Shown here piece after piece: positions 28,118 to 44,056 of a stretch of DNA of 64,000 nt. The position numbers and the translations under genes are program-made. The notes below the pieces were generated by a model. The model made no database searches. It had not been told where the DNA came from and worked only from the letters and a program-made list of their open reading frames with translations. The DNA is taken from the NCBI RefSeq assembly GCF_000300005.1, contig NC_018691.1, forward strand, positions 1,302,001 to 1,366,000. Direction: 5' to 3'. Position 1 is the first letter of the stretch; each line of letters opens with the position of its first letter. Source of the stretch: Alloalcanivorax dieselolei B5. Lineage in GTDB: Bacteria > Pseudomonadota > Gammaproteobacteria > Pseudomonadales > Alcanivoracaceae.

Positions 28118-28131
28118 GTATAGGAGGCTGA

Positions 28132-28874: not shown

Positions 28875-28883
28875 GGCTAACTC

Positions 28884-29618
28884 ATGAGCTCTGAGCTTAG
28901 AAGAACGCTGGCCCTGGGTCAGGAATTGCTCAATGCAGTTAGCTTAATAAAAGCCGGTTTTGGTCAGATTCAACATATCGGTTCTGGAAATGATTTCTAC
29001 CACCTGCCGCTGCTGACGTTGGCTAGTGGTTTTGAGCGGTTCATGAAAGTCACATTGTGCTTTCGCTGTCTTGAGGGAAATGGCAGCTTTCCAACCAAAG
29101 CGATTTTTCCGTCGGGGCGAAGAGGACATGACCTCAATCTCTTGCTCAAAAAAATCCGAACAGAATGCTTCTTGGTTGATTATATTAACAATGTCCCAGT
29201 AGCTCAGAGTGATTTCGAATACTTAAATTCAAAGGGCCTTCTTGCTTTCGTTTCTGTGCTTAGTGATTTTGGGCAAGCGGCGCGGTATCACAATCTGGAC
29301 GTAATCGTAGGTCGCCAAGTGCAGACTAACGATCCTGACGCAGCGTGGCAACGCCTCGAAACTGAGATCCTTTTGGCTCGCAAGGATTTTATGGATGAGA
29401 TAGAAAAGAATCCTGCTAGCAACCGAATTCGCATAGAAATCAACAACGAGGTTGTTTCCCGACTTGAACGGTTGGCGCGGGCTATCGCAAGGCTATACAC
29501 GATAGGTGGGATCGGTAGCGAAGCCAAAAGGTACCTGGTGTACATCGGCTGTTTTCTCCACTTGACGGATGCTGGGCTTGGAACAAAAAAGTATGAACTT
29601 TCGGGCAGGGCTCCGTAG
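28884..29618 (+). CDS. Unknown helical protein (cassette gene)
   Basis: 244 aa. No domain is assigned. It is helical throughout, with HLPLLTLASGFERFMKVTLCFRCLEGNG near the N-terminus, reminiscent of HEPN/DUF-type proteins related to the preceding cassette gene, then RRGHDLNLLLKKIRTECF. The RGHDLNLLLKK stretch is similar in type to the RxxxxH region of HEPN folds (here RRGHDL), so a HEPN-like protein is possible but unproven. Bounded by attC-like sites, AT-richer than chromosomal neighbours. Confidence 0.65.
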   Translation: MSSELRRTLALGQELLNAVSLIKAGFGQIQHIGSGNDFYHLPLLTLASGFERFMKVTLCFRCLEGNGSFPTKAIFPSGRRGHDLNLLLKKIRTECFLVDYINNVPVAQSDFEYLNSKGLLAFVSVLSDFGQAARYHNLDVIVGRQVQTNDPDAAWQRLETEILLARKDFMDEIEKNPASNRIRIEINNEVVSRLERLARAIARLYTIGGIGSEAKRYLVYIGCFLHLTDAGLGTKKYELSGRAP

Positions 29619-29627
29619 CAATCAGCC

Positions 29628-29677
29628 GCATAACAACCGATTTCCCGCTGCTTCGCGGCTCCAAGGGTGCGTTGACG
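29628..29677 (+). repeat. attC-like recombination site, last of the array
   Basis: R'' GCATAAC (29628-29634) and R' GTTGACG (29671-29677) surround the short hairpin CCGCTGCTTCGCGG. Confidence 0.65.
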
Positions 29678-30000
29678 CCAATGGGTGACGCCGTGATGGC
29701 GCCTTCGCGCCCGAAATGCGGGTGCCGATGATACTCATGCACTGGCCTACAACAGCCTGCCAGACGGAGTATTCCAGAGGCTTTCACGCCTATGCGCAAC
29801 GATCAATGCTATGCGCAATCAATGCTGCGTATAGGCAGGACTAAAAGGCCGTAAGACCGGCACCGACGACGAGCGCAAAGGCTTTTGAGGGTGCCTGGAC
29901 AAACACCGTGCCTGCTGCCGCCGGTTGGTAGACGGAATTGATCCGGCGCAAAAGCTCGGTATGATATTGACATGCTATTTGGGGTCCAGGAGTACCCACT
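29678..30000. other. Non-coding stretch between cassette array and parDE
   Basis: No convincing gene. It contains short repeats (CTATGCGCAA twice, with TCAATGCT after each) near 29790-29825 and, just before parD, a probable promoter/operator region with GGTATGATATTGACATGC. The repeats could be debris of a lost element. Confidence 0.4.
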
Positions 30001-30267
30001 ATGAGCATGCACCGGAAAACCATCACCCTGACCGAACAACAAGACGGCTGGGTAAAAAGCCGGATCGAAAGCGGCCAGTTCGGCAACGACAGTGAGTATA
30101 TCCGCCATCTGATCCGGCAGGACCAGCAAGCCCAGGAACGGCTTGCCACTCTCAGGCAGGCCCTGGTTGAGGGTGAAGCAAGCGGCGAGCCCAAGCCGGT
30201 CGATATGGCGGCGATCAAGGCGGCTGGCCGTAAGCGGATGAAGGCGCCGGAGTGGTGCGCACGCTGA
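30001..30267 (+). CDS. parD: ParD-family antitoxin
   Basis: 88 aa. The ribbon-helix-helix N-terminus KTITLTEQQDGWVKSRIESGQFGNDSEYIRHLIRQDQ is characteristic of ParD/CC2985-type antitoxins. The helical C-terminus (ERLATLRQALVEGEASGEPKPVDMAAIKAAGRKRM) would wrap the toxin. An RBS (GGAG) precedes the ATG. It overlaps the parE remnant by 16 bp. Because the toxin is broken, it now stands alone but could still repress its own promoter. Confidence 0.9.
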   Translation: MSMHRKTITLTEQQDGWVKSRIESGQFGNDSEYIRHLIRQDQQAQERLATLRQALVEGEASGEPKPVDMAAIKAAGRKRMKAPEWCAR

Positions 30268-30537
30268 GCCTTACACCAAAGGCGGAATCCGACCTCATCG
30301 ACATCTGGGTGTATACCTGCGAAGAGTGGGGCGTGGATCAGGCCGATGACGACCTTGATCAGCTGTATGCGGGCATGAGGCCGCTGATTCTGGACCGACT
30401 ACGCCCATGTTCTTCCCGGGTATCGCTGATTGCAGGTCGAGCATCGCGCGGTGTTCTATCGAGTGCTGGAAGCGAAGGTGCTAGTGGTTCGTGTGCTGCA
30501 TGAGTACATGGATGCACCGGAAAGGCTTTTGGATTAA
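30252..30537 (+). pseudogene. parE: parE toxin gene, frameshifted and stop-interrupted
   Basis: The frame starts as a normal ParE (RTLSLTPKAESDLIDIWVYTCEEWGVDQAD). After ~45 codons it loses frame around 30395. The expected continuation DYAHVLPGYR is found in another frame, followed by an in-frame TGA, then LQVEHRAVFYRVLEAKVLVVRVLHE and an end at TAA 30535-30537. At least one frameshift and one nonsense mutation inactivate it. This loss makes the adjacent antitoxin unopposed. Confidence 0.85.
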
Positions 30538-30627
30538 GCGAGTACGTGTTCCCCGGTGCCGCTCCGAATGGCTCTCGGCCCCATCTGTGGCGTCTCTGTG
30601 GGCCATGCAGCCGACAACAACGGCTGG

Positions 30628-31151
30628 ACGCCGCCCTGCGCATCTACGCCCGCGCCGGCGTCGGCGACCTCGCCCTCAACACCCTCGCCGAAGAAGCCGG
30701 CGTCTCCAACGGCACCGTCTACAACTACTTCCGCTCCCGCGAAAAAGTGCTCGAAGCCGTCGGCCTGGAACTGGCCGTCCAGCTCTCCGAGCAGATCCTC
30801 ACCGTCAGCGGAGCCGTGGACAGCGGCGCCGAACGCCTCAGCATCGCCGTGCGCACCTTCATGAACAAAGCCCGCACCGACCCGGACTGGACCCGCGCCC
30901 TGATCACCGTGGTCCGCTACGCCGAAGGCATGCGCTCCACCCTCGCCACCTACCTCCGCGCCGACCTCCAAGCCGGCCGCCGCCAAGGCGACTTCCACTA
31001 CGCCCACGAAGAAATGGCCATGAGCATGGAGATCTCCGCCACCCTGGGCGCCATGAACCTGCTGGTGGAAGACGGCGAAGTGGAGCATGCAGACAGTATT
31101 GCCGCGGAGATGGTGCTGCAGGCGCTTGGGGGTGCCGTCGGAGAAGGCTAA
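30628..31151 (+). pseudogene. Partial duplicate of the catabolic tetR gene
   Basis: From LDAALRIYARAGVGDL onward the sequence is nearly identical to the tetR at 24276-24935, with scattered substitutions (for example REQV to REKV). It lacks the native N-terminal tail, being joined to unrelated sequence behind parE, and its end is altered by a frameshift (GGAVGEG). It could still be translated from an upstream GTG (30546) as a fusion retaining the HTH. The same type of repeat follows it as follows the intact gene. Confidence 0.85.
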
Positions 31152-31214
31152 GCGGATTACTGGGTTGGCGTTGCCGGAGGAGGGTGAATAGCTGGAATCG
31201 ACGCAGCTTGAGGA

Positions 31215-31453
31215 CTGACCTGGGGTTTATCTGATTTGGGGAATTAGTAAGGGCTTACTTAGAAGGCTGTTGGGGGCCTTTATGTCTTTGGGTGAGATAA
31301 GGTTGGCCTGGATGTCAGGAGGCGGGTGTCTCGAAGCGTTTGTCAGTGGAGGACTTTTGTGGTCTTATTTTGTGTAAGAGGAAATAGAAAAAAGAGATAT
31401 GACACTGGGGCGTTCATTGGATATTCACGTCGGTGCCCCAATGCCTGTGATAC
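31215..31453 (+). repeat. Repeat copy 3 ending in attI-like core
   Basis: Follows the tetR duplicate exactly as copy 2 follows the intact tetR: TGACCT, AGTAAGGGCTTACT palindrome, GTCAGTGG and TTATTTTG blocks, then GCGTTCATTGGATATT and CCCAATGCCTGTGATAC. The core GTGATAC (31447-31453) differs from GTTATAC by one base, which might weaken it as a recombination site. Confidence 0.75.
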
Positions 31454-31517
31454 TCGAGACGCAGAATGAAAATAATAATCAAAGATCTAAAGGAAACAAA
31501 GGGCTTATGACGGCCCT

Positions 31518-32681
31518 TTGATTGGCACGTTACTTACAAGTTTTAGTTTCACAGACGATGGCCAGGGCCTATTGGAGGAGCGCCCATTATCGGGACCGTG
31601 GGTTCGACCCCCACTCCTGGCCCCCAATCGATGGTATGAAATGACTAAGGCAAGGCTGGAGTGGAAGGTTAGTGGATTGCTCCCAATCCCCATTCCCGAC
31701 AATTGCAAGTATTTTCAAAAGCGTTGTGACCTTGGCTATTCAAGCCGAGTCTTTGGTCGAAGCGATATTGATGTGCAGACTTTCACGTTGACGCCCACAA
31801 GCCTTTTCCATCAACTTATCGATGCTGAAAACGTACGAAGCTGCGATATACCAACAAAGTCACTTCCTTACGATATCGAAGTTCGCGGTATGCGGCTTCT
31901 GGTTTCTTTCCGAATTCGTGTATTTTTCAATCAGGTAATGGTAGTTACCGTGAGAGTGCTGCCGCAGCTAGAGGAACCATTTGAGGACCTTATAACGTTA
32001 TCAGTTCTTTCCAATCATCCGTCGCTGGAGGCACTGATTCGAACCATATTCAATGCGCATTTCTGCCCGAAACCAAGTTTTATGGCAGTGCAGGGAAAGG
32101 TTTCTAAGCCGCTGATAAGGATCTATGACCGAGAGTCATCAGATCAAGAGCTTGTCGATCTTGTGTCTCGTCACCCCGGTATGAATGGGAGGGCTACCTC
32201 GGAGATGCTCGCTAAAAATAGTGAACTGAACTTCAATGACGACTTAATGCTTATAGATAAACAAGGTGTGGTACTGCGTTGCGGTTCTCTCGATAGAATA
32301 GGGCAACACAATCGGTTTCGGAGAGTCGAAGCACTATTTGAGTACGCTATGTGCCTTTCTACATTTATAGAGAGTGAGGTTAACGGGCTCACCTCGATGG
32401 AATCAACGGGTAGTTCGGAGTGGCGCGATGCGCATTTAAGATTAGTGGAGCGGGATGTTGTTCCGAAAAGCGTAAGCGCCCGACGCGCATGGCAACTGAT
32501 AAGTAGTGAGTTGCAGCTAGCCAACTTGGAGGATGGCGGCGTACCCGAGGGGCTGGAACTCTATCCAGATCTGACCGCTAGCAAAAAGCATTGGTATGAG
32601 CGACCTCTGGGCCTAATTTTTATAGGTGTGTCTGTCGTAATTTTAAGTACCGTCTTAGTTTCAGTGCTGGGCCTGGGCTAG
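31518..32681 (+). CDS. Unknown protein with C-terminal transmembrane anchor
   Basis: 387 codons from TTG 31518. ATG 31641 (MTKARLEWKVSG) is an alternative start and may be the real one, since the first 40 codons include a tRNA-like stretch. No domain is recognised. The body is a mixed alpha/beta soluble domain (VSFRIRVFFNQVMVVTVRVLPQLEEPFEDLITLSVLSNHP, DRESSDQELVDLVSRHPGMNGRATSEMLAKN). A single hydrophobic segment near the end (LGLIFIGVSVVILSTVLVSVLGLG) would tail-anchor it in the inner membrane. AT-rich, located right after repeat copy 3, so probably a cassette or island gene. Confidence 0.7.
   Translation: MIGTLLTSFSFTDDGQGLLEERPLSGPWVRPPLLAPNRWYEMTKARLEWKVSGLLPIPIPDNCKYFQKRCDLGYSSRVFGRSDIDVQTFTLTPTSLFHQLIDAENVRSCDIPTKSLPYDIEVRGMRLLVSFRIRVFFNQVMVVTVRVLPQLEEPFEDLITLSVLSNHPSLEALIRTIFNAHFCPKPSFMAVQGKVSKPLIRIYDRESSDQELVDLVSRHPGMNGRATSEMLAKNSELNFNDDLMLIDKQGVVLRCGSLDRIGQHNRFRRVEALFEYAMCLSTFIESEVNGLTSMESTGSSEWRDAHLRLVERDVVPKSVSARRAWQLISSELQLANLEDGGVPEGLELYPDLTASKKHWYERPLGLIFIGVSVVILSTVLVSVLGLG
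31561..31627 (+). other. tRNA-like 3' segment (incomplete)
   Basis: GTGGGTTCGACCCCCAC looks like a T-arm and is followed by TCCTGGC, which can pair with GCCAGGG at 31562-31568 as an acceptor stem. Only ~30 nt separate them, too short for D-arm plus anticodon arm, so this is not an intact tRNA. It may be a degraded tRNA fragment or chance. Confidence 0.25.
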
Positions 32682-32919
32682 GATGTGTGAATATAACAGG
32701 AAACAGAAAAAAGAAGCTATCGCAGTCTTCCCGGCGCAGAGCGAAAGGAAAAAGATCAAGTCATAATAATAGCCCAGAGTCCGGGTTGAAGGATTTATCC
32801 GAAGCATATCTGAAGAAAGATTGGAAAGGTGGATAACATAGAGTCGGCACTGTTATATCTTCCGCCGTTTCGCCGGTCCAAACCGGCAGGTGTGTCAAGT
32901 GTCGTGAAGTTGAATGCAC

Positions 32920-33111
32920 ATGCCTACTAATATTCAGAGCCTTAAGCTGGCCATTGAAGAATGGTTGATTCGCAACCAAATCGACAAAGACACATTGTCC
33001 TATGAAATTTCTGATGTCGTGACCGTGGAGAACTTCACCTAAACGATGCTGATTTGGTTCGGTTATTCGAGGGTTGGTTGCACACTATGCTCGTGATACC
33101 GGGGGTAAAGA
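32920..33111 (+). pseudogene. 5' part of a decayed gene interrupted by IS66
   Basis: A 40-codon frame MPTNIQSLKLAIEEWLIRNQIDKDTLSYEIS ends at TAA 33042. Beyond the stop the sequence continues as NDADLVRLFEGWLHTML in a shifted frame up to the IS66 insertion point. The right-hand remainder (35587-35643) reads KEYIESFGYYFEH. Together they look like one small protein gene with a nonsense/frameshift history before or after IS66 insertion. The family is unnamed here. The stretch 32682-32919 shows no further gene. Confidence 0.6.
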
Positions 33112-33136
33112 GTAAGCGTCCGGTAATCCCACCTTG

Positions 33137-34714
33137 TCAGGCGGAGGTCGGCGCCCAGTTTTGCGGCAGGAGTTCGTCGATGGCGTTGTTCTTGTGCGTC
33201 GGCAGCCGAGCCAGCACATCCTTCAGATACGCATAAGGATCGTGGCCGTTCAGCTTCGCCGACTGGATCAGGCTCATGACGGCGGCCGCACGTTGACCAC
33301 TGCGCAGAGAGCCCGCGAACAGCCAGTTATTGCGCCCCAGCGCCCAGGGGCGGATCTGGTTTTCCACCCGGTTGTTGTCGATCGGCACCGCGCCATCGTC
33401 CAGGTAGCGCGTCAGCGCCGCCCAGCGTTTCAGGCTGTAGTCCAGGGCTTTGGCCGTACCCGAGCCGTCCGGGACTTTTTGCCGTCGGGAGATCATCCAT
33501 TGGTGCAGGGCGTCGGCGATGGGCCGGGCTTTTTCGTTGCGCAAGCGCTGGCGGTCTTTATCCGGCAGATCCTTCGCCTCTCGCTCGATCCCGTACAGCG
33601 CACCGATGGACTCCAGCGCTTGGGCGGCCAGCTCACTCTTGTTGGCCACGTGCAGGTCGTGGAACTTGCGACGGGCGTGCGCCAGGCAACCGATCTCGGT
33701 AATGCCCTCGCCGAAGCCCGCCTTATAGCCAGCGTAGTCGTCACACACCAGCTTGCCATGCCAGTCCCCCAGGAAGGCGCGGGCGTGTGCGCCCGCCCGG
33801 CTGGGCGCGAAGTCGTAGACCGTGGCCTTCAGTTCAGAGAACGAGGTGCTGCAGTAAGCCCACACATAGGCCCGGTGGGTTTTCTTCTTGCCCGGTGCCA
33901 GCATCGCTACCGGCGTTTCATCCGCGTGCAGCACCGGCTGGGCTAGCAACTGGGCTCTGAGCGCATCCACCAGTGGCTGCAACCACACACCGCAGGTGCC
34001 CACCCACTCGGCCAGGGTGGAACGGGGGATCGCCAGACCGGCCCGGCCGAAGATGCGCTCCTGGCGGTACAGGGGCAGATGATCGGCGTACTTGGCCACC
34101 AGCACCTGGGCCAGCAGCCCAGACGTCGGGATGCCTTTGTCGATGACTTGCCTCGGCACCGGCGCCTGGATCAAGGTCTCGCATTGCTCGCAGGCCCACT
34201 TGCCCCGGATATGGCGCTCCACCGTGAACTCGCCCGGCACGTAGTCCAGCTTCTCGCTGATGTCCTCGCCGACGCGCTTGAGCGCACACCCACAGCGGCA
34301 TTGCGTATCCTCGGGTTCATGGTGGATCAGGGTGCGGGGCAGTTGGGGCGGTAGCGGGGCGCGCTTGGGCTGTTGCTTGGCAGCGGCGGGGGGCGCCTGC
34401 GTTGGAAGTAACTCGGCCAGCTCCGCCTCCATGGCGGCCAGGTCGGCGTCGATCAGTTCGTCAAGCAACTGGCCCTGCACGCCCTTGAACTGCTCGCTGC
34501 GCCGGGCGAACTTGTGGCGCTTGAGCAGCGCCAGTTCGTGGGCCTGTTTCTCGATCACCGCGTCGCGGTGACGGATCGCTTTTTCTTGTTGGCTGAGGGT
34601 CCGGTCATTTTGGGCGAGGACCCGATCCTTGCTCTCCAAGTGATCGAACAACTCGGTGGCCAGGGCACGGAGTTGGTCGGGAGAGAGGGCGTTGAGGTCA
34701 GGGCGCGAGGTCAT
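33137..34714 (-). CDS. tnpC: IS66 transposase TnpC
   Basis: 525 aa. Order of parts: N-terminal coiled region with SKDRVLAQNDRTLSQQEKAIRHRD, a zinc-finger-like HEPEDTQCRCGCALKR, then WACEQCETLIQAPVPRQVIDKG, and the DDE core with LHADETPVAML, LVCDDYAGYKAGF and VENQIRPWALGRNNWLFAGSLRSG (catalytic Glu). It ends with the C-terminal IS66 box HKNNAIDELLPQNW. Full length for the family, probably functional. Confidence 0.95.
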   Translation of the reverse strand: MTSRPDLNALSPDQLRALATELFDHLESKDRVLAQNDRTLSQQEKAIRHRDAVIEKQAHELALLKRHKFARRSEQFKGVQGQLLDELIDADLAAMEAELAELLPTQAPPAAAKQQPKRAPLPPQLPRTLIHHEPEDTQCRCGCALKRVGEDISEKLDYVPGEFTVERHIRGKWACEQCETLIQAPVPRQVIDKGIPTSGLLAQVLVAKYADHLPLYRQERIFGRAGLAIPRSTLAEWVGTCGVWLQPLVDALRAQLLAQPVLHADETPVAMLAPGKKKTHRAYVWAYCSTSFSELKATVYDFAPSRAGAHARAFLGDWHGKLVCDDYAGYKAGFGEGITEIGCLAHARRKFHDLHVANKSELAAQALESIGALYGIEREAKDLPDKDRQRLRNEKARPIADALHQWMISRRQKVPDGSGTAKALDYSLKRWAALTRYLDDGAVPIDNNRVENQIRPWALGRNNWLFAGSLRSGQRAAAVMSLIQSAKLNGHDPYAYLKDVLARLPTHKNNAIDELLPQNWAPTSA

Positions 34715-34788
34715 GCGGACAGTATGCCAAGCCAGCGCCCGGTGGGCGATTGGAGGTTGGGCGTATAGCCAACGGGAACGAGGTGTGG

Positions 34789-35124
34789 TTACAGCACCGA
34801 GATCACGGCCTCGTCGCCCAGTCGCTGCCAGGGCAGGCCCTGCACCAGGGCGGCCAGTTGTTCTTCATTCAGGCGCAACTGATCGCCGCGCCAAGCGTCA
34901 CCCCAGTGGAACTTGCCCCGATGGAGCCGGCGGGCGCACAGCCAGATACCGAAGCCGTCGTGGATCAGCACTTTCATGCGGTTGCCCCGGCGGTTGGCGA
35001 ACAGGTAAGCCTGATGTGGCTTCGCCGCACCGAACACCTGGATCACCCGGGCCAGGGCCTTGTCCGGTCCGGCGCGCATGTCCAGTGGCGCGGTGGCCAG
35101 CCAGATCTCGTCGATGCGGATCAT
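34789..35124 (-). CDS. tnpB: IS66 accessory protein TnpB
   Basis: 111 aa. It has the IS66 Orf2 pattern: IDEIWLATAPLDMRAGPDKALARVIQVFGAAKPHQAYLFANRRGNRMKVLIHDGFGIWLCARRLHRGKFHW. Start ATG 35124 overlaps the tnpA stop (ATGA), indicating coupled translation. The longer in-frame version starts inside tnpA and is not preferred. Needed for transposition in IS66 elements, exact role unknown. Confidence 0.93.
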   Translation of the reverse strand: MIRIDEIWLATAPLDMRAGPDKALARVIQVFGAAKPHQAYLFANRRGNRMKVLIHDGFGIWLCARRLHRGKFHWGDAWRGDQLRLNEEQLAALVQGLPWQRLGDEAVISVL

Positions 35125-35504
35125 CGCAGCAGCTCGCGTAACAGGGCCAGGCACTGATGGGCTTGCTCGGCGGGCCATTCCACGATGACCGGTCCGCCGG
35201 AGCGGGGCACTTCAATGCGGATGCGGTTACCCGACTCCTTGGCGCAAGACCGGTCAGGAGGGCTCGACGCCACCGGTACCGCCAAGGGCATAAACGCGGG
35301 TGACGTTATTGTCTGGCCGGCTTGCTCGGCTTCACGGATCCAGCGGCGGACCAGGTTGGCGTTGAGTTGGTTGTCCAGGGCGATCCGGGAGACGGACACG
35401 CCCGGTTCCTGACAGGCGGCCACGATGTGCGCCTTGAACTCACGGGAGAAGTGACGGCGACGTCGTGGTTGAGGTTGGGGCTGAGATACGCTTAACGGGT
35501 CCAT
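35121..35504 (-). CDS. tnpA: IS66 accessory protein TnpA
   Basis: 127 aa. Helix-turn-helix (HTH_Tnp_1-like) protein: RRRRHFSREFKAHIVAACQEPGVSVSRIALDNQLNANLVRRWIREAEQAG. It likely binds the element ends. No Shine-Dalgarno is visible before its ATG. Instead a 14-bp inverted repeat (35505-35540) abuts the start, so initiation may be masked or leaderless. Confidence 0.92.
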   Translation of the reverse strand: MDPLSVSQPQPQPRRRRHFSREFKAHIVAACQEPGVSVSRIALDNQLNANLVRRWIREAEQAGQTITSPAFMPLAVPVASSPPDRSCAKESGNRIRIEVPRSGGPVIVEWPAEQAHQCLALLRELLR

Positions 35505-35540
35505 CGATAGTGTCCACTAAGAAATAAGTGGACACTATCG
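35505..35540. promoter_or_regulatory. Perfect inverted repeat abutting tnpA start
   Basis: CGATAGTGTCCACT and AGTGGACACTATCG are 14-bp exact inverted arms with an 8-bp spacer. The arm's last base is adjacent to the tnpA ATG on the minus strand, so it occupies the usual RBS position and could fold in the mRNA or bind TnpA. Confidence 0.6.
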
Positions 35541-35640
35541 TGAAGGCCGCAACCGTCGACTCAAGATGGGGTCGCCGGACGCTTACGGTAAAGAATACAT
35601 TGAATCCTTCGGTTACTACTTTGAGCATAGGAAGAAATGC

Positions 35641-35695
35641 CATGAGCAGTCAGTGTTATACCCGGGAATTCAAGGACGAAGCAGTTTTAGAGGTG
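35641..35695 (+). pseudogene. IS3-family OrfA N-terminal remnant
   Basis: ATG 35641 opens MSSQCYTREFKDEAVLEV, the typical first residues of an IS3-family OrfA helix-turn-helix protein (RYTxEFKxEAV). The similarity ends after ~18 codons in unrelated sequence. It is a short scar next to the IS66 target gene remnant. Confidence 0.5.
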
Positions 35696-35769
35696 GATTT
35701 ATGGTGGTTGCGTTGGAGAGAAGTGTGGCTTGCTTTGATTTTCGGGCGTAACCAATTATTAGAAAGCGA

Positions 35770-36306
35770 CTAGTCAATCCAAACCACTATTTCTAAGCCC
35801 AATCTCCTGCCTACGTCGATAACTATTTCTTTCAAATCAGTATTCATGGCTTTTCCCGACTCAATGAGCACCGCTGCGTATGGTTCAGCCGCCTCTATGC
35901 TATGAGCGCGCTGAAACACCGAGATTACAACTGCCTTCCAGTCCCGGCTATTCCCCCAGCAAATGATCTTTCCGTCGCTCAATAGACGACCATGAGGCTT
36001 ATCGAACTCCGCTTTAACTTTGGCATCATTTATATCTAGGCCTGCGGAGAAAAATACTTTGTTCGAACTGCTACCTAGATGCATCTTTAAATAAGGCTTT
36101 AGCAGCGAATCCTTGATATACACTCTAACTTTTCGGGGGTCCATAAAATAAGCTAGGACGCCGCCGATATCAATATCCTTGGACCAGTTCTCGTACCAGA
36201 TCGCACGGTCGAGATCGGATAGGCGGGCCCAATCCAGCTCGTCTGCCTTGTTCCATATCTTTTTTTGAACCTTCTCTCGGATTTCCTTGGGAACGGCGGC
36301 ACTCAT
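35770..36306 (-). CDS. Unknown protein ending the methylase/ATPase/helicase operon
   Basis: 178 aa, no named domain recognised. Helical N-terminus (EIREKVQKKIWNKADELDWARLSDLDRAIWYENWSKDIDIGGVLAYFMD), then an alpha/beta part (KVRVYIKDSLLKPYLKMHLG, GRLLSDGKIICWGNSRDWKAVVISVFQRAHSI). The ATG overlaps the helicase stop by 4 bp (ATGA), so it is translated with the operon and is likely a component of the same restriction-type system. Conserved Trp/Asp residues suggest a dedicated partner of the helicase. Confidence 0.8.
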   Translation of the reverse strand: MSAAVPKEIREKVQKKIWNKADELDWARLSDLDRAIWYENWSKDIDIGGVLAYFMDPRKVRVYIKDSLLKPYLKMHLGSSSNKVFFSAGLDINDAKVKAEFDKPHGRLLSDGKIICWGNSRDWKAVVISVFQRAHSIEAAEPYAAVLIESGKAMNTDLKEIVIDVGRRLGLEIVVWID

Positions 36307-37979
36307 TGAACTGCTCCAGGGGAAGGAGGCATAGGAAAGTTGAATTCGGGAAGCTCCAGTTTCGCGTCTCCCTCCCGGTTGAACAGATCAGCTTGATCGA
36401 GCAGCCACTCGAACATAAAGTGCCCCGCACCTTGATCAGAAAACTGAACAATACGTTCTACCAAGTCGAGTCGTTCAACGTCTCCAGAAATCGATTTCTG
36501 CAAGTCGATAACTTCGGATATTCGACGCAAATCGCTGACAAAATCCAGTACTACGACTTTATCTTTGTTCGGCGCCAATCGTAGCCCCCGGCCAAGCTGT
36601 TGAACGAATATACGGCGACTATGGGTTACTCGCATAAAGGCGAGCATGTCGACATCCGGAACATCGACGCCCTCATTGAATATGTCCACCGTCGTTACTG
36701 CGTTGATTGTGCCTCGGCGTAGCGCAGCCATGGTTTTCTCTCGGTCGCGAGGAGACATCTCTCCGGTGATGTGAGCGGATCTAAAACCATATAGTTTGAG
36801 CATGGCGGAAAAGGATTTCGCATGCTCGACGCCAGCACAGAATACGACAAGGCTGCGGCGAGATTCTCTTTTGAATGTGTCCGCGATAACTCGCGCGGCC
36901 TCTTCATCACGAGTCGATATGAGAAGCCGTGTGTTTAGTTCCTTGATTGAATACTCGTGACGCGACCTTTGTCTGACGAAGTCCCAATCGATGTTGTCAG
37001 CGAGTAATCGGTAATCTGCTTCACAAAGAAATCCGCGGCGTAAGCCTTCGTCTATCCCGATTTTCGTCACCGGCTGTCCAAGTATAGTGTCGATGTCGAA
37101 GCGATCTCCCCTCCAAGGGGTCGCGGTGGCACCACCAACCATGGGTGCGCCCAGCTGGTCGATTACGCGGCGGAAGCTTTCGGACCCAATATGGTGCGCC
37201 TCGTCGACCCAGATGAGACCGAACTCGGGTAATGTTTCGAGCCTGGGAAGAACGCTTTGGACGGTGGCAAACGTAATACCGTCCCAGAAGGTCGGCTGCT
37301 CCCCGCCAATTAGGAGGTGGGTGGGGATGTTCTTGGGTAATTGCTGCCAGAATTCCCTCTGCAACTGCTCGACCAACTCGCGCTTGTCCGCCAATACCAG
37401 GATGCGCCCCGAATCGATGACCCCATCTCGAAGTAATTGGGCAGTGGTCTCGGCCATGACTACGGTTTTTCCCAGTCCAGTGGCTAGCACCACTTGCCCG
37501 CGGCCGGTTTCCCTCAGGGAGGCAGTCAACCGCTGGACGCAATCATCCTGATAGTCGCGTAGATCGCGCCGAGCCCTAGGGTATTCTGGGCTGCGGCGCA
37601 TCATTTCCAGCAGCGTCGCCGGGGGGAGTGATTCTATTCGGATGCCAAGTCTCGTCCAGCGATCGATTGAGGAGTTTAACGCCGGGCCGAATGCACGCGA
37701 GGTAGCAATGGCGAGTCGATCGGCCTTATAAAAACGAGATGCCTCCACCACTTCGTCGACCGCATTCGGATCGGGATAACTGTCGCTAGTGAATTTGCAT
37801 TGTACCACCCAGAGTTGGCTATTTTTCACACCGAGCACATCCGCGCCACGGTCACCGGAGCCGCCCACAATACGGACGTCCTCGAACGCATTTTGTACCA
37901 ACAGTCTCGCCACGTCGCGTTCGAAAGCCCGCCAGGAACCGTTTAGTAGGCGGCGTGAATCGAGAAAGTAACCTTCCAT
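36303..37979 (-). CDS. SF2 helicase with N-terminal Mrr/PD-(D/E)XK-like nuclease domain
   Basis: 558 aa. The N-terminal domain (~15-110) has the Mrr-type restriction endonuclease pattern: AFERDVARLLVQNAFEDVRIVGGSGDRGADVLGVKNSQLWVVQCKFTSD, giving the GxxD...QCK (D-QxK) catalytic signature. Then come SF2 motifs: DYQDDCVQRL, GLGKTVVMAETT (Walker A), DEAHHIG (DEAH-box) and TATPWRGD, and motif VI-like QQLGRGLRLAP. It probably translocates along and cuts unmodified DNA as the restriction subunit. It starts overlapping the ATPase gene end. Confidence 0.9.
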   Translation of the reverse strand: MEGYFLDSRRLLNGSWRAFERDVARLLVQNAFEDVRIVGGSGDRGADVLGVKNSQLWVVQCKFTSDSYPDPNAVDEVVEASRFYKADRLAIATSRAFGPALNSSIDRWTRLGIRIESLPPATLLEMMRRSPEYPRARRDLRDYQDDCVQRLTASLRETGRGQVVLATGLGKTVVMAETTAQLLRDGVIDSGRILVLADKRELVEQLQREFWQQLPKNIPTHLLIGGEQPTFWDGITFATVQSVLPRLETLPEFGLIWVDEAHHIGSESFRRVIDQLGAPMVGGATATPWRGDRFDIDTILGQPVTKIGIDEGLRRGFLCEADYRLLADNIDWDFVRQRSRHEYSIKELNTRLLISTRDEEAARVIADTFKRESRRSLVVFCAGVEHAKSFSAMLKLYGFRSAHITGEMSPRDREKTMAALRRGTINAVTTVDIFNEGVDVPDVDMLAFMRVTHSRRIFVQQLGRGLRLAPNKDKVVVLDFVSDLRRISEVIDLQKSISGDVERLDLVERIVQFSDQGAGHFMFEWLLDQADLFNREGDAKLELPEFNFPMPPSPGAVQ

Positions 37980-37980
37980 A

Positions 37981-40323
37981 TCAAATAATTCCGTCCTGCC
38001 CGAGTAGTCGAACGGAAAGTGTCGCCCGAATTAATTCGTCGCGATCACATCGGTCGAGATCCCTAGGGCTTTGGGACGAAAGCCAAACTGCGTCGGCGAG
38101 ATAGGCGTCATAACGTTCCAGAACGCGCTCCCTGGCTTCTTTATTCACTTTCGTGTCACCGTAATCCAGAGAGGAATAGGGTTGGGCCCAGAATCTCCCG
38201 TCGAAGAACAGTTCCGGATGCTGGCGCACGAATTGCTTGATATCTTCAGCCTCCGCATAAGAGAGAAACTCGCCCGTATCAATAACAGCTTGGGAGCTCG
38301 TTATGCCCGAAGAAGCAATTTTTCGCCTGACTTTGTCTTGAGCCGCCTGAGACAATTCAGAAAATAGCGTCTCGAATGAATTATCCTGACTGGACTCACT
38401 TATGGAATGGGCTATATCGCGGAGCGATCTTTCGGCGAAGGAGATTATGCTTTTCGGGTCCAGTTTTGCGTCTTCCGCGTATTCATTTCTAAGATCGGAA
38501 AGGATCGTAGAAAACACTGCTGAGTTTGGACTCGCTTCTTTCAAGAACTCGTAAGTTTTAAATGCCAGCTCGCAGAGCACTGCGTCCATAGGGGTCATGG
38601 TTACCGAACGGAAGACAGGGTGATCTGGATCGAATAGGAATAGGTAAGTCCGGGTGCCGGGGTCTTCAATTTTAAGAGTCCATGGGGCTTTGACGGGTAA
38701 ATCAGGGTCGTTGGAGGTAACCATGAACGCCTCCACGGTGAACTCGACTTTCAGCAGGGGGTGTTTATAAACCCTGGATAGTTCGTGCAATTTTTGCCGT
38801 GCGGGTGCGATGGGTTCGCTTTTGTACTCTTCCCCGGTTTCAGAAATAGTAGAAGAATCCCTTTCCTCGGTAGCTGTGCCATCATCTTCGTCTAAAAATC
38901 CTTCCGGCACTGCGGGAGAGGCTGACCCTGGGCCAGTTGTGGTCGGTGTTCCTCCGACTATGCCACGGTCTTCTTCCTCGACCAGTTCGTACCACTTCTC
39001 GTCGCCCTGGTAGTCCGGGTCTCCTTTATGAAACAGATCGGCCATCTCTAAGGCGCGCTCATTGTTCTTGACCGCCAGAATGCGTGACCATCGCCCAGTC
39101 TTCCCTTGCGGACTGCTGCGGCGGAACGCCTGAAATAAACGATATAGGGGCGCATTTGATGGCTCGAACGCCAAAGCCTTGGCTTTTTGCGGTTGCAGCG
39201 GTCCCTCACCTCGCACCAGGGTCACCATTTCCGACCATGATGTGTCATCACGTTCGAAGCGGTCCTTCGTGTAACTCACCCGGCAGTGGTCCAGGTGTAT
39301 CTCGCCAATAAAGCGACCACGATTACGCTGATCGTCAATGGGGTATTCCCGCTCGCTCCGCTCTCCACCGGTCCAAACGAACAGATCTTTGTTTTGGGCT
39401 TCGATAACGCGCCCATTCCTGATGATGTCGATGCCGAAATCTTCTTCGTGCATGTATCGTTGAAGCCCTACCCAGCCGTGAAGTCGGCGTTTCAGCTCGA
39501 CGGTCTTGCATTCGGGGCTGCCTGTAGGGCAGCCTTGTTCTCCGGAAAAAGACAGCATGCAGCTGAGACAGTAGTGCCGTGACGGCAACTCGAAATCGAA
39601 CGATTCCACAGCGTGAACTGGTTTTCCATCGCTGCCCTGTACCGAGCGATCGGGGTCCCAATGGCATGGGCGCTTGGCCTGTATAGTTTGGCTATTGATT
39701 TGGAGCGTGAAAGCGTCTTTCGACAAAAGCAGAGGCGCATAGATCCGCGCCAGTTGCCGTCGTATTTTGTTAAGATTCGCGCTCTTTGAGAAATACGTTC
39801 TCTGATCGGCTTTCAATCTAAGAACCTTGATCTCGGTACCGTGGGTGGCTGGATCGGGCTTGGGGCGGGCCAAGCGGGGAGTCTGATACGCGCGCGTTCG
39901 ACGCAATTCATTCAAATCGATTCGCAGGCCGGTCCATTCTTTGTCACCGCTCCTCGTGGTATACACTTCGGTGACCATGCCCAGGCGAGCGGTCGCGATA
40001 TTGAATCCCATTCCGAAAAGCCCGAGGTTGTCCAGAGGATTGTTACCGCTCCATCCGGCGCGGACCGCGTGCTCCAGTTGTTCCAAAGTCATACCGGGGC
40101 CGTTGTCCCGAACAGTGACGCTCGCATCGTCCTTGTTTTGTGTGGGCAGGCTGATGACAACCGATGGGGCTTCGACGTCGGCACTGTCCCGGCGCGCGTT
40201 GATGAAAGCGTCGATGCTATTGTCGATTAGCTCGGCCAGGCACTTCCATTGATCGAGGTTAATTTCCCCGAGGATTTGTAAAACCCGGGGATCTGGGGTC
40301 AAATCGAATTCTGAGGCAGTCAT
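37981..40323 (-). CDS. GHKL (MORC/MutL-like) ATPase of the defence operon
   Basis: 780 aa. The N-terminal GHKL fold has N-box ELIDNSIDA (~27-35), G1 RDNGPGMTLEQ and G2 NLGLFGMGFNIATA, as in MORC-type HATPase_c_3 proteins. The C-terminal half is long and unfamiliar, with a charged linker rich in Glu/Asp/Ser around residue 470-520. ATG 40323 has AGGAAA upstream, preferred over a GTG overlapping the methylase stop. MutL-/MORC-like ATPases in methylase-Vsr operons are known from comparative genomics as restriction-associated. Confidence 0.88.
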   Translation of the reverse strand: MTASEFDLTPDPRVLQILGEINLDQWKCLAELIDNSIDAFINARRDSADVEAPSVVISLPTQNKDDASVTVRDNGPGMTLEQLEHAVRAGWSGNNPLDNLGLFGMGFNIATARLGMVTEVYTTRSGDKEWTGLRIDLNELRRTRAYQTPRLARPKPDPATHGTEIKVLRLKADQRTYFSKSANLNKIRRQLARIYAPLLLSKDAFTLQINSQTIQAKRPCHWDPDRSVQGSDGKPVHAVESFDFELPSRHYCLSCMLSFSGEQGCPTGSPECKTVELKRRLHGWVGLQRYMHEEDFGIDIIRNGRVIEAQNKDLFVWTGGERSEREYPIDDQRNRGRFIGEIHLDHCRVSYTKDRFERDDTSWSEMVTLVRGEGPLQPQKAKALAFEPSNAPLYRLFQAFRRSSPQGKTGRWSRILAVKNNERALEMADLFHKGDPDYQGDEKWYELVEEEDRGIVGGTPTTTGPGSASPAVPEGFLDEDDGTATEERDSSTISETGEEYKSEPIAPARQKLHELSRVYKHPLLKVEFTVEAFMVTSNDPDLPVKAPWTLKIEDPGTRTYLFLFDPDHPVFRSVTMTPMDAVLCELAFKTYEFLKEASPNSAVFSTILSDLRNEYAEDAKLDPKSIISFAERSLRDIAHSISESSQDNSFETLFSELSQAAQDKVRRKIASSGITSSQAVIDTGEFLSYAEAEDIKQFVRQHPELFFDGRFWAQPYSSLDYGDTKVNKEARERVLERYDAYLADAVWLSSQSPRDLDRCDRDELIRATLSVRLLGQDGII

Positions 40324-40337
40324 AGCGTTTCCTGTTT

Positions 40338-41540
40338 TCACCTAACAATTTGCCGAGTGCTAGGTTTCTTGTTGTTCTCGCATTTCATCAAACTGTTTAC
40401 CACGGACTTCGCCACGACCTCGGCTAACCGAACCGGAACGGCATTTCCCAACTGCCGCATGGTTTGGCTCCAAGAGCCGTGGAATTCGTATTCGTCGGGG
40501 AATGTTTGCAGCCTCGCTGCTTCTCGCACGGTGAAGTAACGAATGCTTCCATCGTCTTTGACAAACATGTTCTCTCCACCAGGGACGCCATGGTGTCCGG
40601 CTTTCAACGTTTTCGCAGGCTCGTCAAGAGCGCTTCCAGTATGGCCCACATAAGTGCGCGCTCCCGGCGTGAAAACGTGATTTGCTATTCCGTTGTTGGG
40701 ATGAACTTCGGGGTCGGGTAAGTCGAGCAACGCATCACGAGTTGTTCGCCAGCGCTCCAGCTCCAATGAATCGGCGTTGCCGCTTAGGAGTTGTACTTGT
40801 CTTGCATGCCGGTTCGGTATTTTGTGCATGCGCCGTCTATCGAGTTGGTGTTCATCCCAGTAGCTTCCATCAATCCATTTTGAGATGAGCAGGGCTGCTT
40901 CCGAATGTGTTTTTTTAGGGAAAGACCATTCGGCGCCGATATCTGATCGAATTCCGACAAAGAAAACGCGTTCCCGTTTTTGTGGTATGCCGAAATCTGC
41001 AGCATTAAGAACATTGAAAAGGACATTGTATGTTGGGGCGTTCTTGTTTGAAGAGTGATGCTTTTCTAACCGTGAACGATGTTGTATCCATTTCTCTCCC
41101 TTTTTTCGAGAGATTTGGGGGTACTGTAGTTGCAAATGTATATAGGAAAAGTAAGGGATGAAAGCTTCACGCATTAGGCCTTTGACGTTCTCAAAGATAA
41201 AGGCTTTAGGCATGAGTTCTCGGACGGCCCGTACGGCTTCCGGAAACATATCTCTTTGATCACGGTGTGCCTGGTGCTTTCCTCCCATAGAAAATGGTTG
41301 GCAGGGAGGGCCTCCGGAGACAACCGCGATATCGGAAGTCAAGGAGCTGAAGTCGAAGGTGCGCGCATCTACCTCGTGAACCGGCCAACCTTCGACGGCG
41401 TGAGCGTGGTGCCGTTGGTTTTCTCTGAAAGTCTCGCATGCATAGTGGTCCCATTCTATGACGGCGGCATGCTGGAATCCCGCGTTCCCCATACCAATTG
41501 CGAGGCCACCGGCCCCCGCGAAGAGCTCAACACTGCGCAT
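40338..41540 (-). CDS. dcm: DNA (cytosine-5-)-methyltransferase
   Basis: 400 aa. All C5-methylase motifs are present: motif I ELFAGAGGLAIGM, motif IV GGPPCQPFSMGGK with the catalytic Cys, motif VI FENVKGL, motif VIII QKRERVFFVGIR, and motif X GNAVPVRLAEVV. ATG 41540 is preferred, since it overlaps the vsr stop (ATGCGCAGTGTTGA) and gives MRSVELFAGAGG. It modifies host DNA to protect it from the operon's nuclease and may produce sites whose deamination the adjacent Vsr repairs. Recognition sequence unknown. Confidence 0.95.
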   Translation of the reverse strand: MRSVELFAGAGGLAIGMGNAGFQHAAVIEWDHYACETFRENQRHHAHAVEGWPVHEVDARTFDFSSLTSDIAVVSGGPPCQPFSMGGKHQAHRDQRDMFPEAVRAVRELMPKAFIFENVKGLMREAFIPYFSYIHLQLQYPQISRKKGEKWIQHRSRLEKHHSSNKNAPTYNVLFNVLNAADFGIPQKRERVFFVGIRSDIGAEWSFPKKTHSEAALLISKWIDGSYWDEHQLDRRRMHKIPNRHARQVQLLSGNADSLELERWRTTRDALLDLPDPEVHPNNGIANHVFTPGARTYVGHTGSALDEPAKTLKAGHHGVPGGENMFVKDDGSIRYFTVREAARLQTFPDEYEFHGSWSQTMRQLGNAVPVRLAEVVAKSVVNSLMKCENNKKPSTRQIVR

Positions 41541-41940
41541 CGAGAAATTCCTTAATCCTGTTCTTGAGCTTGCAGACATCAGCAAGCTCGCATTCCCATA
41601 TGATCAACACACTCCAATTCTCCTCTCGAAGCGCTTTTTCATTCTTCAAATCTCGTTGACGGTTGGCTTCAAATTTTGCTAGCCAAAACTCTTGTCTTGA
41701 CTTCGGTGTTCGCGCCAAGTGGCAACTCGGGTGGCGATGCCAAAAGCAACCATGAACGAAAATTACCTTCCTCCGCGTACGAAACACTAGATCCGGTTTG
41801 CCGGGGAGGTCCTTGGCATGCAATCGATAGCGATAGCCCATGCCATGGGTTAGTCTTCGAACCAACATCTCCGGCACGGTGTCTCGTGAGCGCACGCGTC
41901 CCATGATTTCCGAGCGTCGCGTTGGATTGACGTCGTCCAT
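41527..41940 (-). CDS. vsr: Very short patch repair endonuclease (Vsr)
   Basis: 137 aa, normal length. The Vsr pattern includes RRSEIMGRVRSRDTVPEMLVRR, the catalytic PDLVF aspartate, zinc/active-site motif VHGCFWHRHPSC and later SVLIIWECEL. It nicks T:G mismatches arising from deamination of 5-methylcytosine, limiting mutation at the methylase sites. The gene overlaps the methylase by 14 bp, so both are cotranslated. Confidence 0.95.
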   Translation of the reverse strand: MDDVNPTRRSEIMGRVRSRDTVPEMLVRRLTHGMGYRYRLHAKDLPGKPDLVFRTRRKVIFVHGCFWHRHPSCHLARTPKSRQEFWLAKFEANRQRDLKNEKALREENWSVLIIWECELADVCKLKNRIKEFLDAQC

Positions 41941-41943
41941 CCG

Positions 41944-42138
41944 TCAATCCTTTTGGGGGAGAGGTGGCCACTGATTTGCTACGTATTTCTTAGCAACGTC
42001 CCTTAATATCCACGACTGAGATGCTTTCTTATCCCGGGCGATTTGTTCCAATTTCAGATGCAAAGACGTCTTGAAACCCACGGACATGTGGGTCGTGGTC
42101 TGTATTCTTTTCTTATTGCTCGAAGCCTCTCGGCTCAT
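41944..42138 (-). CDS. Small RHH-like DNA-binding protein at the head of the operon
   Basis: 64 aa from ATG 42138 (MSREASSNKKRIQT). ATG 42162 eight codons upstream is also possible. THMSVGFKTSLHLKLEQIARDKKASQSWILRDVAKKYVANQW resembles a ribbon-helix-helix fold as in CopG/Arc antitoxin-like repressors. Its stop is 4 bp from vsr. A CACCAC-G-GTGGTG palindrome just upstream is a plausible operator for it. A role as operon repressor is inferred. Confidence 0.7.
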   Translation of the reverse strand: MSREASSNKKRIQTTTHMSVGFKTSLHLKLEQIARDKKASQSWILRDVAKKYVANQWPPLPQKD

Positions 42139-42166
42139 GGCGGCCCCGTTAAAGTTCACCATATTA

Positions 42167-42179
42167 CACCACGGTGGTG
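42167..42179. promoter_or_regulatory. 13-bp palindrome CACCACGGTGGTG
   Basis: Perfect inverted repeat (CACCAC-G-GTGGTG) lying 4 bp upstream of the alternative start of the RHH-like gene and probably within its promoter. Candidate operator for the RHH-like or XRE regulator. Confidence 0.55.
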
Positions 42180-42364
42180 CAAATTCACTGCAGGGATGGA
42201 GACTGTCTCGGATTGCCGCCGGTGGGTTTGTATACTGCGCCCGGGCTCCTTGTCGAACAGAGCCTCCAGCTGTGATTTCGAACGTCATCGGCTCTTTGTC
42301 TGGACTTATATAGACCGGTGAAAGAGCGTCTTATCTTTTAGCTCGAAGAAGTCTACCAAACCGT

Positions 42365-42508
42365 TTAGTGAGCCAATAACGCTGCTTTTATTGCTTCCGC
42401 TCCCTTCCGATAACAAACCACAGCCAATAGCTCCGAATCAACCCAAACGCCCCAATAGCGGCTCCCACGATAGTGACCGATCTCAATGTTCGGCTTGCGC
42501 TTCTTCAT
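42365..42508 (-). CDS. 47-aa unknown protein in the defence operon control region
   Basis: Too short for a normal ORF list. MKKRKPNIEIGHYRGSRYWG then VWVDSELLAVVCYRKGAEAIKAALLAH, 47 codons from ATG 42508 with GGAGGGAATC directly upstream, a good RBS. Beta-strands with an N-terminal basic patch and a C-terminal helix suggest a small nucleic-acid- or protein-binding fold. It sits between the RHH-like gene and the divergent XRE gene. Function unknown. Confidence 0.65.
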   Translation of the reverse strand: MKKRKPNIEIGHYRGSRYWGVWVDSELLAVVCYRKGAEAIKAALLAH

Positions 42509-42569
42509 GATTCCCTCCATGAGTTTCAATGATACGTAAAGTCATCATAGAGTATGTCGTCCGAATATG

Positions 42570-42603
42570 CTACGTATAGTATGTAGATTTATAGTCATCT
42601 ATA
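42570..42603. promoter_or_regulatory. Candidate controller boxes upstream of XRE gene
   Basis: Two adjacent inverted repeats: CTAC-GTATAGTAT-GTAG (42570-42586) and TATAGTCATCTATA (42590-42603), just 16 bp before the XRE gene start. Restriction-modification controller proteins bind paired operators of this kind. AT-rich with -10-like TATAGT. Confidence 0.5.
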
Positions 42604-42618
42604 AGAACAATTTGAAGT

Positions 42619-42849
42619 ATGACTACTCACATTGATGACGCACAGAAAAAGCTGGGTTCCGTGATTCGGGAACGGAGGCGTGCCGCCGGTATTTCCCAGG
42701 AGGCCTTCGCCACCGAGGTTGGGATTCATCGCACCTACATCGGTGCGGTGGAGAGGGGCGAGCGCAACGTTTCCCTGGCTAACATTCTGCGTATCGCCAG
42801 GGCGTTGAACGTCTCCGCCGCCCAATTATTCAATGAGGCCGGTCTTTAG
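42619..42849 (+). CDS. XRE-family controller (C-protein-like)
   Basis: 76 aa. A single HTH_3 domain: [60 protein letters not shown]. Size and sequence match C proteins of restriction-modification systems, which time methylase and nuclease expression. It is divergent from the methylase/ATPase/helicase operon and separated from it by the 47-aa gene. Confidence 0.9.
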
Positions 42850-42913
42850 TTCGTACCGACTTCAAAGACTTCCTTTCCAAGCTTCCCGGTCGCCAACCGA
42901 CCAGGTGACAACC

Positions 42914-44056
42914 ATGATCATCTCCTCCACCCACGATTACCGCCTCGCCGCCAAACGCCGCCTGCCGCCGTTCCTGTTCCACTACATCGACGGGGGCGCG
43001 TACGACGAGCACACCCTGGCGCGCAATGTGTCGGATCTTCGCGATTTGGCGTTGCGGCAGTGGGTGTTGAAGGCGGTGGGGGAGGTGGATTTGTCGGCGC
43101 GGTTGTTCGGGGAGGCGGTGAGCCTGCCGGTGGCGTTGGCGCCGGTGGGGCTTACCGGGATGTACGCGCGGCGGGGCGAGGTGCAGGCAGCGCGGGCGGC
43201 GTCGTCGCGGGGCGTGCCGTTTACGTTGTCGTCGGTCTCGGTGTGTCCCATCGAGGAGGTGCAGCCGGCGATGACGCGGGCGATGTGGTTTCAGCTGTAT
43301 GTGCTGCGCGATCGCGGTTTTATGAAGAACGCGCTGGAGCGGGCCTGGGCGGCGGGGGTGCGGACGTTGGTGTTCACGGTGGATATGCCGGTGCCGGGGG
43401 CGCGCTATCGCGATCGGCATTCGGGGATGTCCGGGCCCTTCGCGGCCTGGCGGCGCATGCTGCAGGCGGTGGCGCACCCGCGCTGGGCGTGGGACGTGGG
43501 CCTGCGCGGGCGGCCGCACGATCTGGGCAATGTGTCGGCCTACCTGGGCCACCGCATCCACCTGGAGGATTACATCGGCTGGCTGGGCGAGAACTTCGAT
43601 CCGTCCATCGGCTGGCGGGACCTGGAATGGATTCGTGAGTTCTGGAAGGGCTCGATGGTGCTCAAGGGCATTCTCGATCCGGAGGACGCCCGTGAGGCGG
43701 TGCGGTTCGGCGCGGACGGCATCGTCGTCTCCAACCACGGCGGGCGCCAGCTCGATGGTGTGCTGTCCTCGGCCCGGGCCCTGCCGGCCATCGCCGACGC
43801 TGTGCGGGGCGACCTGACGATCTTGGCGGATTCCGGCGTCCGCTCTGGCCTGGACGTGGTGCGGATGCTCGCCCTGGGCGCCGATGGCGTGCTGCTCGGC
43901 CGCGCCTTCGTCTACGCCCTGGCCGCCGCCGGCGAGCAGGGCGTGGCCCATGTGCTGGACCTGATCGCCAGCGAGATGAAGGTGGCGATGACGTTGACCG
44001 GGGCCAGGGCGGTTGGGGAGATTTCGCGGGAGAGTCTGGTGCGGGCGGGTGGGTGA
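42914..44056 (+). CDS. lldD: L-lactate dehydrogenase (FMN alpha-hydroxy-acid oxidase family)
   Basis: 380 aa. The TIM-barrel FMN family is shown by [17 protein letters not shown] at the N-terminus, [21 protein letters not shown] and the signature [11 protein letters not shown] with active-site His, plus the distal [26 protein letters not shown]. It oxidises L-lactate to pyruvate at the inner membrane, passing electrons to quinone. ATG 42914 ([10 protein letters not shown]) fits the usual LldD start. The upstream frame extends into the XRE gene and is rejected. A vestige of a second copy lies at 46035. Confidence 0.93.

Follow-up and report, generated by a model that had tools for sequence, protein, structure and literature searches.

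What does an operon that joins a cytosine methylase to a MORC-type ATPase and a nuclease-helicase do, and what is the part of its last gene? The question is raised by a gene cluster of Alloalcanivorax dieselolei B5, studied here within a stretch of 64,000 nt (contig NC_018691.1, positions 1,302,001 to 1,366,000; hereafter the window, whose numbering is used throughout). Six intact genes on the minus strand run from 42288 to 35770, in the transcription order RHH, Vsr, 5-methylcytosine (5mC) methylase, MORC ATPase, Mrr/superfamily 2 (SF2) helicase and P178. P178 is the name we give to the 178-amino-acid product of the last gene, and MORC, the helicase and P178 are together termed the trio. P178 proves to be a near-constant, though not universal, third member of a MORC-helicase module. 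With roughly even odds we read the operon as a restriction-modification system whose restriction arm is driven by ATP and gated by methylation, and cooperates with or replaces a type II endonuclease.

The genes of the operon

The operon begins with an RHH protein (41944-42288), a likely regulator, whose match to RHH_1 (E 0.002, 18.4 bits) falls under the cut-off of 20.5 bits and whose start codon is uncertain. An RHH-like stretch is also found upstream of Vsr in the related loci L007, L029, L030 and L043. The Vsr T:G mismatch endonuclease follows (41527-41940; Vsr, E 9e-29; TIGR00632, 1.8e-41), retaining the motifs KPDLVF, HGCFWHRH and WECE, and then the C5-cytosine methyltransferase (40338-41540; DNA_methylase, 6.1e-62), in which the C5-methylase motifs are present. 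The listed open reading frame of the methylase begins at a TTG at 41585; homologues and the ATG favour a start at 41540, the longer form being possible. The remaining genes encode the MORC-type GHKL ATPase of 786 amino acids (37981-40341; HATPase_c_3, 2.1e-13), an Mrr-type nuclease domain fused to an SF2 helicase/translocase of 558 amino acids (36303-37979; Mrr_cat, 1.3e-11; ResIII, 8.3e-24; Helicase_C, 1e-15) and P178 (35770-36306), an open reading frame with no real family match.

The genes are tightly packed. With the ATG start Vsr and the methylase overlap by 14 nt, there are overlaps of 4 nt between the methylase and the ATPase and between the helicase and P178, and the ATPase-helicase and RHH-Vsr gaps are 1 and 3 nt. 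Because the identical gene order recurs in distant relatives, this layout is more than chance. The original prediction, made from the sequence of the window, described a methylase, Vsr, a GHKL/MORC-like ATPase and an Mrr-DEAH helicase that overlap or nearly touch, and all are present and intact on the minus strand. Its five named genes are real, but Vsr precedes the methylase, and there is a sixth gene, RHH, before Vsr.

In a profile search of the PDB the only matches of the ATPase at E ≤ 0.001 were human MORC3 and MORC4, and a single-sequence search at E 0.1 gave the identical three MORC3/MORC4 sequences; the comparison covers solved structures only. The GHKL residues E37, N41, D79, G83, G107/G110/G112 and T169 are invariant in all 24 aligned rows. 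So is K359, which we read as the basic residue of the MORC S5 domain. The MORC motif GhXhhpXXRhl (PMC2292703) is fitted exactly by GIDIIRNGRVI in the window. Four of the 24 rows have the strict motif; the other 20 deviate, mostly by a charged residue near the end (e.g. GIDFIRNGRKI). By sequence the ATPase belongs with the MORCs: among solved structures it lies nearer to eukaryotic MORC than to the rest of the GHKL proteins. Identity as MutL was rejected, given that MORC3 and MORC4 are the sole PDB matches at E ≤ 0.001. MORC/MutL-like ATPases were said beforehand to be known from comparative genomics, and this type of operon has indeed been described (PMC2292703), here with MORC rather than MutL. 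The C-terminal domain (515-786) evolves fast, and is less identical than P178 in most locus pairs; its model (pLDDT, predicted local distance difference test, 85.8) gave no usable PDB match (best Foldseek E 0.086, best VIA Z 5.8).

In the helicase, the Mrr set E20, D47 and Q60xK62, the Walker A motif GLGKT (168-172) and DEAH (259-262) are each invariant in all 24 rows aligned. Loss of key residues on alignment had been named in advance as counting against the prediction; the GHKL, Mrr, Walker A and DEAH positions show none, and the motifs of the C5-methylase and Vsr are present in the window proteins. The best PDB matches of the helicase by profile are 7clg (a putative helicase), presumably SauUSI, and RadD (6jde). 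Library matches include mREase_IV of PADLOC, and RadD is the best, with XPB/Rad25 models also among them.

P178 as a partner of MORC and the helicase

Alignment of P178 relatives alone retrieved 39 genome loci, among which L008/L009, L012/L013 and L027/L028 are near-copies. The helicase lies directly upstream of P178 in every one, reduced in L036 to a C-terminal fragment; the P178 of L045 is truncated where its contig ends. Of the 39 loci, 38 have MORC, within 60 nt in 36; it is broken in L014 and L029 and lacking in L036. A methylase is found in 37 and Vsr in 34 (in L018 as a remnant). The trio is also found on plasmids of Deinococcus and Rhodococcus and in distant viral contigs, and four of five plasmid records with MORC have P178. 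The search was also made in reverse: P178 was recognisable after the helicase in 9 of 14 viral-contig loci found by MORC; it was not in L065, L070 and L073, and L068 and L071 stop before its position. In a sample of the phylum P178 and MORC are present in the identical 2 of 398 genomes, that of the window included, too few for a claim of co-occurrence. The phage collection yielded no P178.

The last gene had been called uncharacterised, and it remains so: a profile search gave no real match in Pfam, PADLOC, NCBIfam or PHROGs, the best being RCC1_2 at E 0.12, below the cut-off. Matches to RCC1/BLIP-II were dismissed as chance, spanning 13 to 24 residues around a glycine-tryptophan stretch, and so were those to augmin (E 0.005) and exendin (E 0.68), which are unrelated proteins.

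P178 diverges faster than its partners. In each of the 406 complete locus pairs (of 595, from 35 of 49 loci) its identity is below that of the helicase, and in 99.8% below that of the N-part of MORC; the C-part of P178 diverges more than its N-part. Between the window and L007 the identity is 0.61 for P178 and 0.92 for the helicase motor.

In 22 of the 39 genome loci the gene after P178 is a PIN_8 gene (e.g. L002, 9526-10605). The idea that such a gene was cut off in the window by an IS66 element was dropped; the nearest relatives, L007 and L043, have no PIN gene, and tblastn of the window found no remnant. A 233-amino-acid protein without a Pfam match, divergently oriented from MORC (L033, 5145-5846, and relatives), is present in 14 of the 17 PIN-less genome loci, and is possibly a regulator.

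Structure of P178

A model of P178 built from an alignment of 34 rows has a mean pLDDT of 91.5. Helices lie within residues 7-87, followed from 97 to 177 by the order strand-strand-strand-helix-strand-helix-strand. This order fits the alpha-beta-beta-beta-alpha-beta core of PD-(D/E)XK nucleases, with a VIA Z of at most 7.2; values below 8 can reflect a common arrangement. The top rows are CdiA-CT (Z 7.2), EndoMS (6.4), CdiA-CT (6.1) and a Pyrococcus repair endonuclease (5.7), followed by EcoT38I (5.5), Can2 (5.4) and Shedu (5.0); we take all seven to be nucleases or nuclease-domain proteins with the restriction-endonuclease fold. The model thereby suggests, with moderate confidence, that P178 has a helical N-part and a restriction-endonuclease-like C-part.

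No acid is conserved at the PD and (D/E)XK places in the 36 aligned rows of alignment A2. Conserved instead are K103-P104-H105-G106 and, in the strand 113-119, W117, with W123, K124 and R133 nearby. Across A2 the conserved residues include K103, H105, D111, D122, K124, E132 and E149, position 132 being Q in the window.

The methylase and the link to Eco29kI

The window methylase and that of plasmid pECO29 share 47.7% identity across 93% of the query. Within the target-recognition domain, the part adjoining motif IX is more alike (40 of 69 residues identical) than the whole protein (184 of 381), while the full region between motifs VIII and IX (55 of 126) is slightly under the whole-protein level. 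We take the pECO29 methylase to be M.Eco29kI on the strength of its name and of the Eco29kI-family annotation of its neighbour. Since the window methylase resembles it, the predicted target is CCGCGG; Eco29kI and Cfr42I recognise CCGC/GG (PMC10855626).

The three plasmid methylases closest to that of the window lie in Vsr-methylase-GIY-YIG operons, in which the endonuclease occupies the slot after the methylase where the window has the trio. These records are not among the five plasmid records with MORC. Related methylases are carried by 40 plasmid records, of which four neighbourhoods (H14, H15, H16 and H37) were opened for the methylase, and further ones on account of P178 or MORC. pECO29 and the Vsr-methylase-GIY-YIG plasmids thus share a related methylase with the window (and Vsr, in the three larger plasmids), but they have the GIY-YIG endonuclease and no MORC, helicase or P178 was found in them, the reverse of the window.

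No GIY-YIG/Eco29kI gene was found in the window by tblastn; here, as in the two nearest relatives, which show none either, the trio directly follows the methylase. Nor was PF09517 found in the genome of the window. Thirteen of the P178 loci lack a linked copy; a genome-wide PF09517 search of ten of these, six being metagenome-assembled or uncultured by their titles, found none, and the positive control, L010, was detected. One neighbouring gene was inspected in each of L026, L031, L034, L039, L040, L041 and L044, which have no Eco29kI gene, and no Pfam restriction endonuclease was found; L031 gave a Schlafen/AAA protein and L040 an MT-A70 methylase, with no match for L041 or L044.

On a tree of the helicase and MORC, the presence of the endonuclease needs at least six changes and that of PIN two. 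The tree was made by a quick method from 40 of 49 loci and has several long branches; it omits near-copies and loci that are broken or partial (L003, L005, L009, L013, L014, L018, L028, L033 and L036), and L045 carries no label in it. The window and L007, both lacking the endonuclease, differ by a nonsynonymous divergence (dN) of 0.057 in the helicase, 0.121 in MORC and 0.300 in P178, the synonymous divergence (dS) being too high to estimate. For L034 (no endonuclease) against L035 (which has it) the trio gives dN/dS of 0.02-0.09 at a dS of 0.27-0.39. Because of this low dN and these ratios, the trio, as judged from substitutions, is kept without the endonuclease. The methylases of L034 and L035 differ more (dS 1.14) than the trios, which are almost identical, so the methylase seems to have been exchanged separately from the trio.

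Possible function of the operon

The operon had been put forward as a candidate atypical restriction system. Intact motifs, conserved residues and recurring gene order support this, and from them we infer a role in defence. In the system we propose, the methylase would place 5mC on host CCGCGG sites and Vsr would repair the T:G mismatches left by deamination of 5mC, as expected from their families. MORC, P178 and the Mrr-helicase would act as a single complex. MORC would close on foreign DNA as an ATP-driven clamp, or would loop it; looping by MORC has been proposed before (PMC2292703). P178, with a nuclease fold that lacks the usual catalytic acids, may be the subunit that contacts the DNA or licenses its cleavage, while the SF2 motor would translocate along unmodified DNA and the Mrr domain would cut it. 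In many relatives an Eco29kI-type GIY-YIG endonuclease would act alongside the trio. In the window the trio itself is probably the restriction arm, because no GIY-YIG enzyme was found and because the trio directly follows the methylase there and in the two nearest relatives.

A number of observations weigh against this reading. The MORC-helicase pairs of L065, L070 and L073 have no recognisable P178, a different gene standing in its place, and a prophage described below has P178 without MORC or helicase; the three genes are therefore not inseparable, and a pure subunit model leaves the prophage arrangement unexplained. The fold of P178 is another point: just 3 of 998 chains reach a Z of 5 or more before trimming, non-nucleases are close behind in the VIA list (nitrilase 4.9, carboxylase 4.8), and the best Foldseek E is 0.027. 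As to the endonuclease, all 14 control genomes were silent for PF09517 and one GIY-YIG subgroup scores at its cut-off (30.7-32.4 bits against 30.8), so that, with six of the ten searched genomes metagenome-assembled or uncultured, a divergent unlinked endonuclease could be missed. Lastly, a methylase with a type II endonuclease is already present in most relatives, and the trio may then play a helper's role.

That the trio processes or degrades DNA after the type II cut, the window having lost the endonuclease and its trio using another enzyme or being a remnant, we regard as unlikely but as the foremost of the alternatives. A GIY-YIG/Eco29kI gene accompanies the trio in 26 of the 39 loci, GIY-YIG/Eco29kI systems exist without the trio, and SF2 motors with nuclease domains suit the processing of ends. 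Against this, the trio is kept in the ten searched genomes and that of the window, in which no PF09517 enzyme was found (a divergent one could be missed), and no trio gene of the window is broken, its dN being low though dS cannot be estimated.

Two of the other alternatives draw on the prophage contigs L005 and L006, which are near-copies. Their methylase is 76% identical to that of the window and is directly followed by P178, which retains the 12 residues invariant in A2; beyond it come an FRG gene, a DUF262 gene and an integrase (by PHROG match for L005). The FRG and DUF262 labels are presumptive, resting on our own recognition. L005 starts at a tRNA-Ser, and none was called in L006. Neither MORC nor the helicase was found at E 0.001 in the contig records, which may be fragments. 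The pair of FRG-like and DUF262-like genes (L005, 2171-4002) has a counterpart, 42% and 51% identical, in L037 (16183-18110), a locus that carries the full trio.

The prophage methylase and P178 are possibly a counter-defence pair. In one version, to which we give rather little weight, the trio is a self-contained, ATP-dependent restriction arm that can be added to CCGCGG methylase systems and can stand in for the GIY-YIG endonuclease; P178 is its nuclease-dead subunit of restriction-endonuclease fold, sensing the target, and the prophage has copied methylase and P178 to provide methylation and a decoy. Still less probable in our judgement is that P178 takes no part in attack, and as a regulator or brake holds the MORC-helicase nuclease in check on host DNA and signals the activity of the methylase. 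The prophage P178, accompanied by a methylase and not by MORC or helicase, is what would be expected of a protective gene, and the fast divergence of P178, greatest in its C-part, is in keeping with this; but in every one of the 39 genome loci P178 comes directly after the helicase, and the RHH gene of the window already looks like a regulator. That P178 is an active nuclease with a non-canonical site, the Mrr domain being secondary, is very doubtful, since despite its conserved residues, the restriction-endonuclease-like topology and the presumed nucleases at the head of the VIA list the fold matches are moderate and no acid is conserved at the PD and (D/E)XK places.

Genomic setting

The operon lies in a variable island (25200-42380) bounded by a TetR gene and an lldD-like gene (42833-44056, plus strand; named from its sequence). 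Five of six congener regions were compared, leaving out L091, a 1.8-kb stretch at a contig end. All five align to the window up to ~25.2 kb and again at a second copy of the TetR region (~30-31.4 kb), and the match resumes at 42381 (two stretches), 42698 (one) or 42907 (two); the variable region therefore ends near 42.4 kb. In the five congeners other DNA, ~4 to 13 kb of it, separates the flanks. The right boundary first given to the system, 42849, runs into the lldD-like gene and cannot stand.

An IS66 element (33112-35586, minus strand; IS66 domains) lies outside the system, 183 nt downstream of P178. It ends in 25-nt terminal inverted repeats, 84% complementary, and is flanked by an 8-bp target duplication, read in the sequence as direct repeats at 33104-33111 and 35587-35594. 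The same variable region holds a Septu pair (25320-27237), comprising a PtuA-like ATPase (PADLOC, E 4.6e-153) and a PtuB-like protein (1.5e-68). The Septu pair is situated between the two copies of the TetR-type regulator region (24352-25209 and 30607-31453), which are ~6.25 kb apart and share stretches that are 95%, 81% and 74% alike. A scan of the window for RNA families and tRNAs found none.

Relation to known systems

The gene set matches the first type of MORC operon that Iyer et al. 2008 (PMC2292703) described, with MORC, a Rad25-like SF2 helicase joined to a domain of restriction-endonuclease fold, a cytosine methylase and Vsr, so the kind is already known. Those operons are laterally mobile and lie in integration hotspots, a feature shared here. 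A P178-like third gene and a link to Eco29kI are not described in the portions of its text covered here, and no account of P178 or of a MORC-Eco29kI link was found in the open-licence literature searched. New here are P178 as a near-constant partner, its model, and the Eco29kI link with its variable endonuclease. The original prediction was right that the role of the last gene is poorly described; the RHH gene, the Eco29kI-type link and the constancy of P178 are additions to it.

Among tested precedents that combine a 5mC methylase and ATP-dependent cleavage, the nearest we found is CglI/NgoAVII (PMC4267653), which likewise has a separate 5mC methylase and an SF2 ATPase, there required for cleavage. 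CglI differs in having a PLD-B3 endonuclease and a Z1-containing helicase, and MORC is not among its three named genes. Among the CCGCGG systems with 'V', 'C' and 'H' elements, some m5C ones in REBASE have Vsr and a helicase-domain protein (PMC10855626); 'MORC' does not occur in the main text of that paper, nor is a P178-like gene mentioned in the parts covered. By profile the nearest helicases (7clg and 6jde) are those of SauUSI-like type IV enzymes and RadD. SauUSI-like enzymes have another nuclease domain, and a type IV system that cuts 5mC DNA was rejected, since the operon encodes its own 5mC methylase. A parallel is offered by a phage-protective Shedu protein, which has a GHKL domain at its N-terminus and a PD-(D/E)xK nuclease at its C-terminus (PMC12137116).

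Bacterial MORCs have been proposed as the source of the eukaryotic MORC chromatin ATPases (PMC2292703), and their molecular aspects have been called poorly understood (PMC8011034). A small, intact operon with a predicted target and a clear gene-removal test makes the action of a prokaryotic MORC on DNA directly testable, and P178, a family without a library entry, joins the subunits worth purifying alongside MORC and the helicase.

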